Positions 16,732 to 24,880 of a stretch of DNA of 24,880 nt are shown in pieces; positions within the stretch are counted from its first letter, which is position 1; each line of letters starts with the position of its first letter. The position numbers and the translations under genes are program-made. The notes below the pieces were generated by a model that was not told the DNA's origin, did no database searches, and worked only from the letters and a program-made list of their open reading frames with translations. This DNA comes from Krasilnikovozyma curviuscula (lineage: Eukaryota; Basidiomycota; Tremellomycetes; Cystofilobasidiales; Mrakiaceae), in contig MVAQ01000277.1 of the NCBI GenBank assembly GCA_014825775.1, forward strand, positions 1-24,880. Reading direction: 5' to 3'.

Positions 16732-19700
16732 ATGCCTCTTCCTACAATGGCAAGGAGTGATTCTTTCTCCACCGCTCAACTGTTGCCTGGGATTCCCAAC
16801 AACGAACATCCCTCTCCATCGTCGAGCAACTCCCCCTTTGCCTCCCCAGAGGGCTCGACAGTGAATCTGGCAGGTCCGGATGGCCAGTTCGGAACCTACG
16901 GTAGTAGCAGCGGTGTTCATGGGCGAGGAGACAGCTATTCTACCGTCAGTATTAACTTCAACGCTGTGCCACCCCTCGTCATATCGTGGTGCTGAGACTG
17001 GCCCCCTTTTTTAAAATCCTTTCTGCAGACCTCGTCTGCCAGACCTTTCAGAGGAGGACCTGCAGGAGTATCAACACAATCATCTCTAGCTCCTACTGTC
17101 AGCGAAAAGGTGTGTTCCTTTCTTGTTGGCTTCGAAAGTGCTATCCCCACTCTCTCCTCTCACACTCGCCTCCCCCTGTACTCGGTCGCAACGGAATAGT
17201 TTGCAATTCCTTTGGATGGAGGATGGGGGCAAGCTTCTTTCAACGGGTAAGTTTGGATAGTTAATCATCGTCAGCATGCAGTTGGCCCATTCTGTTGACG
17301 TCCTGTGGCGATCGATTTCGTAAGGCCTGAAGGTAAATCAGTTGTTACAAAATGAAACCCTTGACGTCCCACATTCTTGCTTACACTGCACTCTATCACT
17401 CCAGATGATGACTTCCTTCATAATCCTGATCCAGTAAGCTGAGTTTTCTATGAGGTGGTCTTCTTGGAGTTGATTCAGTCTTAACAAGCAGCTTTCTCCT
17501 TCATCCAACGCCTTCGGTCGGCAGAAACGAGATCGTCACAACGATCACGGTGGTTCCATGTTCACACCTAGGGGCTTAGCGAACTTAGGTACGTTCTGCG
17601 GTCTCGCGAAGCTACAACCTTTCTCGATGGCTGGCTTGTCCAACATGCGATCTGACTTGTCTGTTCTACGACATAGGTTGCTTGTTTATATTATCTGCAT
17701 CTATTCTAAGTATGTACTCGAACTGAGTCTCTTTGTATAATTCTTTGATTTTGACCGGTTATTTTGGTTCCATTACAAGTGCTCTTCGCTGGTTATGTAC
17801 GCCCTTCCTTCTCTCTGAAACAGAACCATCTGACCTGATTGAATTGATCCAACAGCCCATCCTTTCATATTATGACAACAAAGGAAACACTAAGAAAACT
17901 ATCGCTTGGGAGTGGGACCTGGCGAAGATCAATGGAAGCTTACAAGCGCACGACTTTATTCAAGGCCGAAGTACGTAGCCTAGCGCCTTTCATCGCTCAT
18001 GCGTCTCAACTCACAATTTTGATTCTTTCTTTCAAACTTTTCCCAGACTTCACGGCAATAGATCCTGCAACGCCGTCGTCTGCTATGTCCATGACTTCTG
18101 ACAGCGGCGAGACTTGGAACCTGGTCTTCTCAGACGAATTCGAGGTCGATGGAAGGACGTTCTATGACGGTGATGACCCGTACTGGCAAGCTATCGATCT
18201 CCATGCTTGGTCAACAGGTGAGTCGTTTCTGCATAAGCACTCCAGTAGTTCTCTCGCTGACTGCTTGGTGGTCACTAGGGGATCTTGAATGGTACGATCC
18301 ACGATATGGTGAGTTTTAGTTTCTCTTCTAGTCGGCCAGTCATACTGAAGAGCTACTATTTCCCTAGTAACCACAAAGAATGGAGCTTTGCGTATCACTG
18401 TGAGGCGCTTCGTTCGCCGCTCGATGGGTACATCACTCTTCATCTCACCGCACTATTCTCTTTGACAGATGGCAAATGTGACGAATCATAACTTGTACTA
18501 TCAGTCAGCTGAGATCCAGAGCTGGAATCGTCTTTGCTTCGTAGGTGGTAGATTGGAAGCATCTGTAAAAATTCCAGGCAGAGCAGATGGTGAGTCAGAG
18601 CTTGATAGTATCAGACGACCAATCAACCAACTCCAGAACGTCACTTACACTAACTTCTCACTCTAAGTTTACGGTTTATGGCCAGGTTATTCTCTTTCCC
18701 TCTGTACCGGCCGTTACTACCATATTCACTGATTCTTCTACCTCTATTCTCATTCGTTAGCGGTTTGGACGATGGGAAATCTTGGACGGGTAGGATATGG
18801 TAAGTAAGGAGTCTCTTCGTCTGTAAGATTATTTTACAGATTTTGTTTGCTTTGTTGTTGGGTTTTCTGTAGGTGCAACTACTGAGGGAATGTGGCCGTA
18901 TACAGTTAGTATCAAGCCCTCTGCTGATTCTTCCAATGCTAACGTTGATCGACTTGCTGTTTATGGTAGTACAATTCGTAGGCCATCTCTCCTTTCTATT
19001 TCTTCGGTCACGTTTCTGATTATCCTATCGTCTACTCAGGTGTGATGTTGGGGGTGAGCGGCCGTAGGTTTCTGGACTGCGCTTCCATTTTCTAACCCTT
19101 TCTTGACTTTCAGCTGCTCCAAATCAGACATTGAATAACGAGCCTTTGATAGCAACTGCTCAGGGTAAATACGGAGTGGAGTTGTCATATCTACCAGGAC
19201 AACGACTATCTCGTTGCGTCTGGTGCGTCGTATCGTTTCCGTATCCTTCGTCGCATCCATTGACACCATTTTGATTCCTCACAGTCCTTCTGAGTATCAC
19301 CCAGGCCCGCAGAACGCTGACGGCAGCTGGAAGGGAAGGTCCGCTCCGGGTAAGTTGATCGCTAACATTATTTTCAACATTGACTAATAAGCAGTTTCAT
19401 CTCGTTGCCCAGAAATTGATGTGTGAGTCCTCCCTTGTTTTGTTTCACACAACTTTCGATTTTGTGGAAGTTGACTTACCTGTGGTCGACCGCTGCAGCT
19501 TTGAAGCACAAACGGACGACACCACACACATTGGTCAGGTTTCACAGTCGAGTCAATGGGCTCCATTCAACGCCCAAGTAAGCAGGTGTTTGTTTCCCGT
19601 TGATGTCGATTCTTAAGCTTGAACCCGCGTCTGCTCTGTAGTACGACTGGGATTCAGCCACATACATGGACATCTTCGATACCACCATTACCACGAGGAA

Positions 19701-20604
19701 TAGTTACAGTGGAGGACAGTACCAGCAGGCTAGCTCAGGAGTCAGTCAGACAAATCAGAATTGCTACGAATATGGCCAAGATGGCACGACAGCGAACTCC
19801 TGCTTCGCTGTGTATGCCTTTGAGTATCAGCCTGGCGAAGATGGTTATATCACGTGGTTCTCTGATGCGAAGAAAATGTGGACATTCGAGCCAGGTGGTG
19901 AGTCTTTTTTTCATAATAATAGCGCACGTCTGTCGGCGTGTCTCTGTGCATGTATATCTTTGCGCTCTAAGTAACGCTTATTTGTGGGCGACTTGCAGGA
20001 ATGGGGAAGAATGATACTGTGGGCGTTTCTGCTAGACCGGTTCCTTATGAGTAAGTGAAGCTGTATTTGCTGCGTTTCCAGTCGAACAATGTCTACTTCT
20101 CTCTTTCGATCTGGTACTCACCAATCATTCTTTATCTTGTTCTAGACCGATGTACGTAATCATCAGTAAGTCATCTGTTCTTTCACTGTTTGTTCAATGG
20201 CTTTGATATCGGTCTCTCATCCGCTCGCATATGATATCTCTCCTCTCCGCCTCTTCCATTGTCCAACAGATCTTGCTCTTTCACTGAACTTCGGTGAAAT
20301 TGATTACACGAGTTTGGAATCTCTTTGGCCTGTTACTATGGAGGTCGAATGTAAGTTTTCTTGAGTTTGTGTGACGATTAGCATTCAAATTTAAGCGTCA
20401 ACCCCTTTCTTAGACATTCGAATTTATCAAGACACATCTGGTACTTCTAATCATACTCTTGGATGTGACCCGGAATCAGCTCCAACCAGTGCCTACATTG
20501 AGAAGTATGCAGAAGGCTACAACAATCCGAATCTGACAACGTGGGCTGAGATGAACGGCGGGGTCAAGGATTTGCCGAAGAATAGCTTAACAGGCTCGTG
20601 TTAG
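16732..20604 (+). CDS. SKN1/KRE6-family beta-1,6-glucan synthesis protein, copy A
   Basis: Twenty-seven exons give 655 residues: 16732-16944, 17029-17109, 17200-17246, 17325-17332, 17405-17433, 17492-17588, 17677-17709, 17780-17796, 17856-17970, 18047-18217, 18279-18308, 18368-18399, 18469-18589, 18668-18685, 18761-18799, 18873-18904, 18970-18977, 19040-19053, 19114-19222, 19285-19349, 19413-19422, 19499-19577, 19642-19897, 19999-20050, 20146-20165, 20270-20350, 20414-20604. A disordered cytosolic N-terminus is followed by a basic KRDR and one membrane segment (about 158-180, GCLFILSASILMLFAGY), as in type II Golgi/ER proteins. The luminal part is a GH16-like fold with the catalytic pattern EIDVFE (E427, D429, E432), VWTMGNLG, YNSCDVGAAPNQT, and the family ending NPNLTTW...PKNSL..SC. 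The family is needed for cell-wall beta-1,6-glucan; the exact enzymatic step is unsettled. Nine of its exons are 32 nt or shorter. Confidence 0.92.
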
Positions 20605-20971
20605 AAGAAGCTCAAACGATGACCTTATCAGAAATAGAAGATGCCCCTATGATCGAGTTTTATTTTGACTCCACTCAAGACTCACACCACAGCATTTTTA
20701 CCATCTATACCACATATTTGCCATCGCGATTTCCAAACCACCTGTAACTAGAAACATGAACATTTGGCTGCTTATCTGCCATCATTGACTGTGTTCCTAT
20801 AGAGGCACAAATTGAGTATCAAAACAAGAAAACATAACGATCGTAACAACTAATAAATACTCTAGCTCGACAATTTGATATCAACCAAGTTACTGCCCGA
20901 AGAAGGGGCGTATGCAATAGAATGAGGTGGGAAAGGTTTGTTGGGAAACTCGAAGACAGCTCGGTTTTTGT
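20605..20971. other. Short convergent intergenic region between the two KRE6-like genes
   Basis: The stop codons of the two paralogs face each other across 367 bases, so both 3' UTRs and polyadenylation sites must lie here. The stretch is A/T-rich (for example AATAAATACT near 20852). No gene, repeat or hairpin was evident. Confidence 0.5.
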
Positions 20972-21313
20972 TTAGCAGCTGCCCGTGAGGTTATTGGCTG
21001 GGAACGTATCTAAACCAGTCATTTGGGCCCAGGTTGTCTTAGTAATGAGAAAAACAGATCCAGGATAAGAAAGGAGGAATAAAGATGCCGAAGCAAAAAC
21101 GAAATAAAAATAGAATGTCAGAACAGTCTTCTCAAGAATGAACAAAAAAAACGACGCACGATGTTGGGGTCGTTGTAGCCGTGGATGTACTTTTCAATGT
21201 ACGCTGATGTTGGGAAATCTGGTGGGTTGCAGCCAATGTTTTTACGATCCGGATCCTCTGCATTGTTCAAATGCAGTGGTTAGATGGATGGTATCACGAG
21301 GAGATGGCGTAGA

Positions 21314-21345
<32 letters not shown>

Positions 21346-24300
21346 AGAAAACTCACGGTAGACACGTATGTAATCCACGTACATCGTCACTGGCCATAAA
21401 GAAGCCAAAGAATCGTAATCTATAGCGCCGAAATTCAAGGACAGAGCGAGATTCTGATGCAATTGTGCATAATGAATCGAGATGACGCGAGTGACATGTA
21501 GTAAGCGCAGTTATGAAGAGAGTCAGTATTGGAGTAATGTACGACTGTGACAGTTCCATAGAGAATTGATTTGAACAAAGAGACGTACGATAATGATGTA
21601 CATTGGTTCCTGAGGAACCGGACGAGCGGACACTCCAACCTGCGGGGAGGCTCCAAAACCGGCACCCTCATACGTCCACGCCTCGATGTCGTCGTTGAAC
21701 CAGGTGATTGATCCATCATATCCTGGCTGGTATTCAAAAGCGTAGATCGCGTAACATCCGTTGGGATTGCCTTTCGAATCCACTTGGTAACAGTCCTGGT
21801 TCGTTGTTGTGACACCTGAAGCAGTTTCCTGGTACACACCACCAGCATAAGAATTAATCTGAGTAATATCCGGGTTCTTGATATCCATGTAGGTTTTATT
21901 GGGCCAGATGTAGTAAGCCTAAACACCAGGGATAAGACATTAGATTCAATGCAACGGTAGTGTCATTTGATGTTGGAAAACCGAACTCACACTGGGAAGG
22001 GTGGAAACCAGTAAATGTCAAAGAGGGAACGGAGGAGAGGAGTTGTCACAACATAATGTTTGTTTATCAGTCTGGCTGCTTAAGATTTAATGAAGGGACA
22101 ACAGGAGAAAAAGAGAACTGACTTGAACGGGGCGAACTGCACACTCTGTGAGACTTGTCCAAGAAAAAGTTGGTTATCGGTTTGTGCTTCATAAAGATCG
22201 ATCTCTGTTGGTGAATTGAAAGGTCAGATTGGGGAGTTTGGACTCGACTTCGATGGCAAAAGCCACTGACCTGGAGCGCTTCTGCCGACCCAAGTTCCGT
22301 CGGAATGCTGAGAAATTTTTTGAAAATTAGATGGGGGGTAAAAACATCTACAAATAAGGAGAACAACTCACTTTCGGGCCAGGATGAGATCCATCGTTGA
22401 GATTCGGGCAAACGCATCGAGAGAGCCTTTGACCTGGATAGAAAGCATGAGCAACTACACGGAAGGAAAACGCACGTGTTGTACTAACCTGGCAGATAAG
22501 AAAGCTCGTAATTGGTCTTGGAATCCGTGCCGGACGTCATTGCAAGAGGTGGGAACTCATTTAGCGTCTGATTAGGCGCAGCTCCGACATCGCAACTGTC
22601 GTACTGTATGAGGAGAAACGAGATCAGATTGGAGACAAGACGATAGGCTAGGAGGAGATCAGAACTCACAGAATAAGGCCACATTCCGTCCAGTGTTCCA
22701 CCGTAGCCTGCTCTTCCCAAGTTGCCCATGGTCCACACTGCCAGTTTGACAAGAATTGTGAAGTATCTCAGTGAAAGGCAACGAGATGTCAATGAAGGAA
22801 CGATTCTGTACCTGCAGGCCAGAGGCCAAACACGGAGGCACGTCCAGGTAGTCTAGCGCGCGCTTCAAGTCTTCCACCGGTGAAGCAGAACCTATGTAGC
22901 GAGTGCGCGTGGGTGGGAAGGGTTCGTCAGCGGGTCAAGATCGAGGAGACAAGAAGGAGACGGAGGCAACTCACTTATTCCAACTTGAGATATGAGCCGA
23001 GATGTAGTCGAGGTCGTGATTTGAGTAAGGCATCATTGTGATCTGCAGTGCGCCGTCCTTGGTCGTGACCTGTCTGGGGTCATACCACTCCAGATCGCCT
23101 ATGAGACCCCCCAATACCTTGTTAGTTCACTATCAAATCTATTACAAAATTTAATTTGAGAAAAGACGGACCTGTAGACCACGCGTGGAGATCAACAGCT
23201 TCCCAGTATGGGTCATCACCTGGGTAGAACGTTCGACCCGCCGTTTCTGTTATGGGCACAACGGGCGGCGGCTCTTCGCATCAGTTCCAAATGATTCTCT
23301 CTAGATAGCAGGTGTACGAAATGAAACTCACCGAACTCATCTGAGAACACAAGCTCCCACGTCTCGCCGGTCTTGGCTACCATTGTCATAGCCGACGCGG
23401 GTGTCATTGGATCAACCAGCCCAAACGCTAATTGTCAACAAAGCGGCAGGTGGGGCGTCTCAGTAAGATGGCAGAATTCAAGTGTACGAGCGGGCCTAAA
23501 AAAAAAAGAACTCACAAGAGATGACAGCGGGGACCTGGCCAGATGCGTTCACACCCCCGAGGTTGAACGAGCCAGTCAGCGGCGCTTTCTTGCGAGTGTA
23601 GTGCGCGACGATGGGGTATCCCGCAAACCTACAGATAAAAACTGTCACTGACTGCCGCTGGAATATAATAAACTCTTATGGAGAAAAGAAAAATTGGGAC
23701 TCACAGCATGATCAGAGCCATGATCAGTAAGAAGAGGCAGCCTAGGTTGGCAATTCCTCTAGGGTTCATGAACGATCCGCCTCTGTCATTCTTCCGGTCG
23801 CGTTTCTGAAGCAGAGACGCAGTGAAAGGATAGGTTGTAAGTGAAAGATCAAAGAAATGGGAGAGAGAAATACGAAGTGGGAATCTCACGGGATCAGGAA
23901 TATGGAGATAGTCGTCTGGCTCTGGCCCTGCGCTCGCCAGTGATTCCTGCCAGATGGCCGGGTCGGACGGTAACGAATACTGCCACAGAAACCAGGAGTT
24001 TTCTAATGATCAGAAGGGGTTTATCGCAAAGGAGAGTGGAAGCGCTTACTCACTTTTTCAGAGACGGTGGGTGCCAGAGAGCTGTAGCTGTTGGAACTCG
24101 GCGGCCGCTGCTGATTCTGAGCAAAGGACTTTGGTAAGAGATTGGAAAAAATAAAAGATGAATCAGAGGCATCAGCAAGGAGATTTCCCGTGGGAGAGTT
24201 TCGGTCTGAGAAATGCGAAAGTGGTGGCAGAAATTAAGCATCGAGACACGCATGTCGCCCAAATTGAAAGTCCACTCGTGTTTGGGTGAATATGTATGGA

Positions 24301-24870
24301 TCCCTCATTCCGCTCGTTCGACCTTCCACCTACGTAAAGAGACCCCAAACAAAAAAAACCATAATTGGGAGGAAACAGGATGCTCACCCTGTTGCTTCCA
24401 AGACTGGTGACGGAATTTTGCGCAGAGTCGTTGTACGAGTGGCTGGGGAGAAAGCTGGTCTGGCTGCTGGCCGGAGAGCCGTGCATCTGAGGGTTGTAGA
24501 AGCCGTAGTCGTTGGCAGATGACACAGGCTGAGCTCCATAAGGGCTTGGATAAGGATTTGCGGCCAGGTTGCCGGGGCCACCAGCAGAGGGCTGGTTCGG
24601 GGCACCCAGAGGTGAAGGGACGTTCCTCTGTCTGGACCCTTTCCTGGAGTGGCCGGAGGACACTGAGGAGCTCTGGCTGCTTGCTTTCACGTAAGGCGAG
24701 GCTGCCTCTGTCGTCCTGTTGGAGGGCGAGGGGGAGGCGGATCGCTTGGTGGTGTTGGGCCTGCCTCCAGGCGGTGGGGGAGCGTCGGTGGACGAGTAGT
24801 GCGAGTTTCTGGAGGAGAAGGAGTAGTTGTTGGCCCCAGGAGGCTTGGTAGAGCCTGTGAGGAAAGGCAT
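20972..24870 (-). CDS. SKN1/KRE6-family beta-1,6-glucan synthesis protein, copy B (5' end near window edge)
   Basis: Nineteen exons give 726 residues: 24870-24388, 24116-24054, 23979-23890, 23805-23705, 23628-23516, 23427-23332, 23246-23172, 23098-22975, 22891-22812, 22737-22670, 22603-22489, 22433-22372, 22307-22271, 22204-22123, 21991 (one base), 21918-21589, 21453-21357, 21257-21160, 21037-20972. The architecture matches copy A: a long Ser/Pro/Gly-rich cytosolic tail, KRDRKNDRGGSFMNPRGIANL, one membrane segment (about 233-250), then the GH16-like domain with EIDLYE (E503, D505, E508), WTMGNLG, YDSCDVGAAPNQT and ending ANNLTGSC. Shared blocks with copy A include LAPTVSEK and SARPVP. The ATG at 24870 is the first visible; only ten bases lie upstream, so an earlier start is possible. 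A 30-A tract lies in the intron after 21357. Confidence 0.9.
21315..21344. repeat. A30 homopolymer (T30 on the gene strand) inside a KRE6-like B intron
   Basis: Thirty consecutive A on the plus strand, hence T on the coding strand of copy B, start about 13 bases downstream of the GTGAGT donor. The CTAAC branch point and CAG acceptor follow normally, so the tract need not disturb splicing. Such runs are length-unstable in sequencing and in vivo. Confidence 0.9.
21991..21991 (-). other. Candidate single-nucleotide exon in KRE6-like B
   Basis: On the minus strand the bases read CTTCCCAG, T, GTGAGT: a strong acceptor, one base, then a perfect donor. The upstream exon ends TTC AA and the downstream exon begins GCT TAC, so one extra base (T, completing AAT = Asn) is needed to keep frame. 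This gives FN-AYY where copy A has FN-AQY. The flanking introns would be 131 and 72 nt. Confidence 0.55.
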
Positions 24871-24880
24871 CGCAGACCGA

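Follow-up and report, generated by a model that had tools for sequence, protein, structure and literature searches.

Gene B, a KRE6/SKN1-like gene on the reverse strand of the window (the whole 24,880-nucleotide stretch of Krasilnikovozyma curviuscula DNA analysed here), very probably contains a real exon of a single nucleotide. The reading frame, the splice signals and the constraint seen in homologues together point to a constitutive exon, a T at position 21991, placed between two U2-type introns of 131 and 72 nucleotides in a gene that would encode an intact KRE6/SKN1 protein. We hold this reading with high confidence.

The landmarks of the site, which a first-pass annotation of the window had named, are all present at the positions it gave. 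The donor GTCAGT begins at 22122, the acceptor CCCAG runs up to 21992, a second donor, GTGAGT, begins at 21990 and the acceptor TTTAG runs up to 21919. Genomic sequence at the end of exon 14 and into the donor (22126-22117) reads TTCAAGTCAG. Exon 14 is in frame with the homologues through its last codon, and splicing it straight to exon 16 breaks the frame. The AA with which it ends needs a T or a C to make an Asn codon; the base at 21991 is T. The same annotation had argued that joining APFN directly to AYYIWP runs off frame and that the T repairs it, and with this T included the spliced coding sequence on the contig is 729 residues followed by one terminal stop. A single base bounded by AG and GT lies between two exons whose phases clash by exactly one base, and this base restores the conserved protein sequence with nothing gained or lost. 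Under this model the mRNA is expected to read TTCGCCCCGTTCAA-T-GCTTACTACATC.

A usable donor, a usable acceptor and a branch-like motif are present in each of the two flanking introns, the weakest element being the acceptor of intron 15. The branch-like motif is TTGAC in intron 14, 27 nucleotides before the 3' end, and CTAAT in intron 15, 22 nucleotides before the 3' end; motifs of this kind are found in 96 of 126 introns of KRE6-family genes. The interval from 22122 to 21919 spans 204 nucleotides (131 + 1 + 72). The first-pass figure of 194 nucleotides was an error, although its division into 131 and 72 nucleotides is correct. Its description of the interval as unusually long holds in comparison with the 126 conserved-domain introns of eight KRE6-family genes, which range from 54 to 158 nucleotides with a median of 70, but not against every intron modelled: intron 1 of gene B, in a hand model of the poorly conserved N-terminal part, has 271 nucleotides, and one intron of an acetyl-CoA carboxylase (ACC) gene parses as 223 nucleotides. 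Since introns longer than 200 nucleotides seem to exist, we do not argue for a hidden exon from length alone.

The last 196 amino acids of gene B match PF03935 with an E-value of 4e-53 and a score of 181 bits, against a curated cut-off of 30. Among the matches listed for the protein, the named best ones are from Phaffia rhodozyma and Mrakia frigida, at about 60-63%. A paralog, gene A, is arranged tail to tail with gene B: the two stop codons (A, 20602-20604; B, 20972-20974) are about 370 bp apart, in the interval 20602-20974 of the window.

Table 1. Positions of gene B features and of small exons and a nearby intron in paralog A, numbered along the window
Feature	Position	Strand	Length (nt)	Description
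Gene B, KRE6/SKN1-like (PF03935)	20972..24880	-		5' end beyond contig; 18 introns in the portion present
Exon 14	22123..22204	-	82	Ends TTC AA, phase 2 within the Asn codon
Intron 14	21992..22122	-	131	GTCAGT...CCCAG
Candidate exon 15	21991..21991	-	1	Single T; would complete AAT (Asn)
Intron 15	21919..21990	-	72	GTGAGT...TTTAG
Exon 16	21589..21918	-	330	Starts GCT TAC TAC ATC TGG (AYYIW)
Intron 16	21454..21588	-	135	Phase 0
Paralog A 8-nt exon	18970..18977	+	8	TACAATTC
Paralog A 14-nt exon	19040..19053	+	14	
Paralog A 10-nt exon	19413..19422	+	10	AAATTGATGT
Paralog A intron after FNAQ	19578..19641	+	64	Two codons downstream of the position of intron 15 in gene B

Spliced alignment and competing parses

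Gene B was parsed with a profile-to-genome spliced aligner of our own, which places no restriction on intron phase or exon length and was not supplied with the proposed exon. The profile was made from the 120 listed homologues, of 3,872 that were detected, with gene B excluded; the query used to fetch them already contained the Asn. Splice-site weights were trained on 124 KRE6-family introns, a set that leaves out the two introns under test and includes the poor parses of one paralog, L014. Introns were called as GT/AG only, except in the runs at different intron penalties and in the enumeration of in-frame solutions. The aligner has no frameshift state, so that an indel would be visible only as an odd parse.

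The unprompted best parse of gene B contains the one-nucleotide exon and scores 1070.9 bits. Four intron penalties (8, 14, 20 and 26 bits) all led to this exon, which was ahead by 26.7, 23.9, 17.9 and 11.9 bits respectively, and allowing GC donors left the parse unchanged. We also ranked, on splice signals alone, the 35 in-frame ways of bridging exons 14 and 16 with at most one internal exon, the best 14 of which were detailed. The one-nucleotide exon reached from the donor at 22122 ranks first, with a score of 0.5. Second (-2.9) is the same exon reached from a poorer upstream donor, with loss of the APFN motif. The best solution lacking the one-nucleotide exon scores -10.7, a GTTCTC donor -12.4 and a 10-nucleotide exon -13.4. 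Relative to the 124 training introns, intron 14 is at the 46th percentile for the intronic part of its donor and the 48th for its acceptor; the corresponding donor of intron 15 is at the 96th percentile and its acceptor is weak, at the 8th.

The protein is constrained at this position. The split codon is Asn in 116 of the 120 listed homologues (of 3,872), Asp in three and Ser in one, and the APFNxxYxW stretch has the same length in 119, in agreement with the first-pass claim that the T completes Asn without gain or loss of a residue. All seven of the other parsed paralogs have the same length at the site; Asn is replaced by Asp in one (L015) and present in the other six. In four of them (L010, L012, L014 and L015) the stretch is encoded without a break and is as long as in the homologues; because it can be read there directly, this evidence on length is independent of our aligner. 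The one listed homologue of different length, the Mrakia frigida protein model P0006, is garbled exactly at the APFN site (SRSHPPSPSR), and tiny exons may have been missed in that public model too. We found no solved structure around APFN: 18 PDB sequences match, and the motif lies outside the one alignment shown.

The alternative that survives best is an assembly error, in which the sequence lacks one base at the end of exon 14, the true gene has one intron of about 204 nucleotides here and CAG-T-GTGAGT occurs by chance. The assembly is a draft of 387 contigs for a 22.4-Mb genome, the region is single-copy in it, with no second copy for comparison, and the two long introns modelled elsewhere would make a single long intron less exceptional. 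However, the frame is intact up to the ends of the two exons, which confines the missing base to a few nucleotides around the junction, and translation stays in frame in ACC and in six further KRE6-family models (in L014 it does not everywhere, and this gene shows anomalies described below). When a base was added at the junction and the error was made cost-free, the score was 1067.0 bits, still 3.9 bits below that of the one-nucleotide exon; the splice motif would in addition have to be a coincidence of 3 in 20,000. An assembly indel had been among the first-pass alternatives. We keep it as a minor rival and regard it as unlikely.

A better-placed competitor, overlooked in the first-pass annotation, is one long intron that uses a weak donor, GTTCTC, at 22118. 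The expected mRNA would be TTCAAGTCAGCTTAC and the protein would read APFKSAYY, with Lys in place of Asn and one residue gained. This solution is in frame and becomes the best parse when the donor of the one-nucleotide exon is forbidden (1047.1 bits); weak donors are also modelled elsewhere in the KRE6 family, for example GTTATT in gene A. Against it, the donor falls at the 0-1st percentile, and the model trails by 12.9 bits in the splice-signal ranking and by 23.8 bits in total score. Lys replaces Asn in none of the 120 listed homologues, and 119 of them show no change of length. We give this model very little credence.

Still less probable is a longer internal exon, of 10, 19, 22 or 79 nucleotides, in place of the single base. 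In-frame solutions with exons of 10, 22 and 79 nucleotides do exist, but the best of these lie 11.8 to 13.9 bits below the one-nucleotide exon on splice signals and would insert 3, 7 or 26 residues into a stretch whose length is fixed in 119 of the 120 listed homologues. Two such exons had been offered in the first-pass annotation: the 10-nucleotide one is 13.9 bits lower and adds three residues, and the 19-nucleotide one falls outside the best 14 of the 35 in-frame solutions. That gene B, seen in a single genome, carries a real frameshift or is a pseudogene or broken allele is scarcely credible, given that nothing else is broken in the 729-residue frame or at the other 16 introns, and that conserved positions are kept.

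Chance occurrence and controls

The frequency with which such a site arises by chance was estimated from dinucleotide-preserving shuffles of the interval. A one-nucleotide exon with equal splice signals was obtained in 3 of 20,000 shuffles, and an equally good exon of 1, 4, 7, 10 or 13 nucleotides in 7 of 20,000. Within 96,088 bases from the window and 11 loci, scanned on both strands, the gene B site is the top AG-N-GT, at 17.78 bits. The second best (14.7 bits) was rejected as an exon; it lies inside a PRP8 intron, where the frame is already intact without it.

The 119 internal exons of the KRE6 family and the 21 exons of ACC yielded no further one-nucleotide exon. Genome-wide, the pattern YYYYYAGNGTRAGT is not enriched, with 56 matches compared with 84 for a reversed control. 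An ab initio score for flanking coding sequence did not separate right from wrong phase in the 55 matches outside gene B (medians 23.7 and 24.25), and by this score gene B is merely ninth of the 56. Four of the 55 matches were inspected closely (L042, L068, L055 and L032). Of these, L042, which we take to be cyclophilin-like, and L068 both look like ordinary exon ends and not like further one-nucleotide exons.

Where a splice site has been lost, the aligner is capable of making up tiny exons. When exons were shortened in silico by their last base, at 125 junctions in all, four re-parses contained a new exon of 6 nucleotides or fewer, one of them a one-nucleotide exon. With GC donors allowed, the aligner invented a 2-nucleotide exon with a poor GC donor in L014, and removing one base at a junction of this gene raised the score by 23.7 bits. 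In the same paralog, on contig C343, an AG acceptor has seemingly been lost on the reverse strand at about 2840-2470 (CCAA before ATGCGATGTT); use of the upstream CATCAG as acceptor would give an in-frame insertion of 12 residues. L014 also has, on the reverse strand, a likely GC-AG intron of 104 nucleotides that starts GCATGTTC.

Intron crowding, order of splicing and origin

Across the eight parsed KRE6-family genes, 127 introns interrupt 10,029 coding nucleotides, and internal exons average 77 nucleotides. Twenty-five of the 119 internal exons are 25 nucleotides or shorter, and tiny exons of 8, 10, 12 and 14 nucleotides are present. Random placement of introns in these eight loci is expected to yield about 1.6 exons of one nucleotide, where one is seen, and about 8.9 exons of 2-7 nucleotides, where none is seen. 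ACC, by comparison, is sparser, with 22 introns in 6,636 nucleotides and no tiny exon, indicating that such crowding is not common to every gene. The ACC protein is about as close to Naganishia as to mushrooms (64-65%), among 120 listed carboxylases that include no Phaffia or Mrakia sequence. In one further locus, L016 on contig C7, the KRE6-like C-terminal part alone was recognised, as a two-exon piece; it may represent either a fragment or a copy that has diverged, and none of the intron and exon counts includes it. Phaffia rhodozyma and the order to which it belongs are said to exceed all other known fungi in introns per gene (PMC5103461).

An intron lies within three codons of the Asn codon in five of the eight parsed genes, at differing positions. 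Neither member of the pair formed by introns 14 and 15 of gene B is shared with any of the seven other parsed genes. Intron 16 of gene B is exactly one nucleotide from a phase-1 intron common to gene A, L010, L013 and L014, a single-nucleotide intron shift. Fekete et al. reportedly devoted a paper to a shift of this kind in 2017.

We infer the splicing of gene B, its order and its origin from sequence, frame, splice-site strength and the constraint in homologues. In the mRNA, TTC-AA, T and GCT-TAC would be joined to encode Phe-Asn-Ala-Tyr. Only one base separates the 3' splice site of intron 14 from the 5' splice site of intron 15, making it improbable that both are bound simultaneously, and the two introns would thus be removed one after the other. 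Either order would give an identical mRNA. Intron 15 would most likely be defined and removed first, as it combines a typical length with a near-perfect donor, the strongest, despite its weak acceptor; CCCAG/TGCTTAC would then be left as an ordinary acceptor. In the reverse order, a donor, AAT/GTGAGT, would be rebuilt, as at a recursive splice site but with one base left over.

The exon probably arose through the crowding of introns in this gene family. In the simplest account, a second intron came to sit one base upstream of a phase-0 intron that was already there. A published alternative, in which the loss of an exon base is rescued by a cryptic exon, fits equally in the form in which it is put forward there (PMC12940212). 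A genome search for another copy of the region, or another allele, returned a single match, the region itself. Further copies of intron 14, as expected of a mobile intron, were not found: it matched only itself in a genome search at E-values up to 10. Nor did introns 14 and 15 show the likeness expected of a tandem duplication (614 of 1000 shuffles were as good).

A more speculative reading, which we consider doubtful, is that the one-nucleotide exon is a way-station in intron movement: near intron saturation a new intron would land one base from an old one, the two would coexist for a while, and losing either would shift the intron by one nucleotide. Gene B would then show both the intermediate, at 21991, and the finished one-nucleotide shift, at intron 16. 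With internal exons as short as those described above and introns of paralogs lying one nucleotide apart, the KRE6 family is well suited to asking whether such exons are steps of this kind. If RNA confirms the exon, gene B would be a further gene with an exon of one nucleotide. The case bears on the smallest exon that a spliceosome can handle in short-intron genomes, and on automatic annotation, which would probably break gene B.

Comparison with known single-nucleotide exons

The exon of gene B would probably be a further case of an exon type that is already known. In Fusarium, a one-nucleotide exon in CYP621A is called the first fungal case by its authors (Nelson and Syed 2026, PMC12940212), who describe it as common to 20 orthologues (24 genes are also stated) and report 18 RNA reads. 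As described there, it resembles that of gene B in being one nucleotide between AG and GT in a fungal nuclear gene, within a codon of a conserved motif, detected through a frame clash in an interval that exceeds the usual intron. CYP621A is an ascomycete P450 gene in which the single base stands in the middle of a Gly codon, whereas gene B is a basidiomycete KRE6 gene, its exon base is the third of an Asn codon, and it is known here from the sequence of one genome alone. No basidiomycete one-nucleotide exon was found among the matches listed from the open-licence papers searched.

Single-nucleotide exons are also described in plants, in Arabidopsis APC11 (Guo and Liu 2015, PMC4674806) and, conserved across land plants, in APC11 and VPS55 (Yu et al. 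2022, PMC8831610). The evidence given consists of constructs for APC11 and of RT-PCR and RNA-seq for both genes (PMC4674806, PMC8831610). Although these are plant genes, they share with gene B, according to these accounts, the arrangement of two introns around one base that is required for the frame, and VPS55 shares the GTRAGT donor.

Two further systems are related. Stwintrons, which are nested fungal introns, resemble the gene B site in that abutting U2 introns are removed in turn; as they are described, however, the inner intron splits a signal of the outer intron itself and no exon base is left (PMC9024468). We rejected gene B as a stwintron, as the signals of both its introns are complete and a single coding base separates the two introns. 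At a recursive splice site, AG/GT, the exon has zero length, and the donor is rebuilt at the joint once the upstream intron leaves. A donor would be rebuilt at the joint in gene B as well but, unlike a recursive splice site, gene B would keep one exon base in the mRNA.
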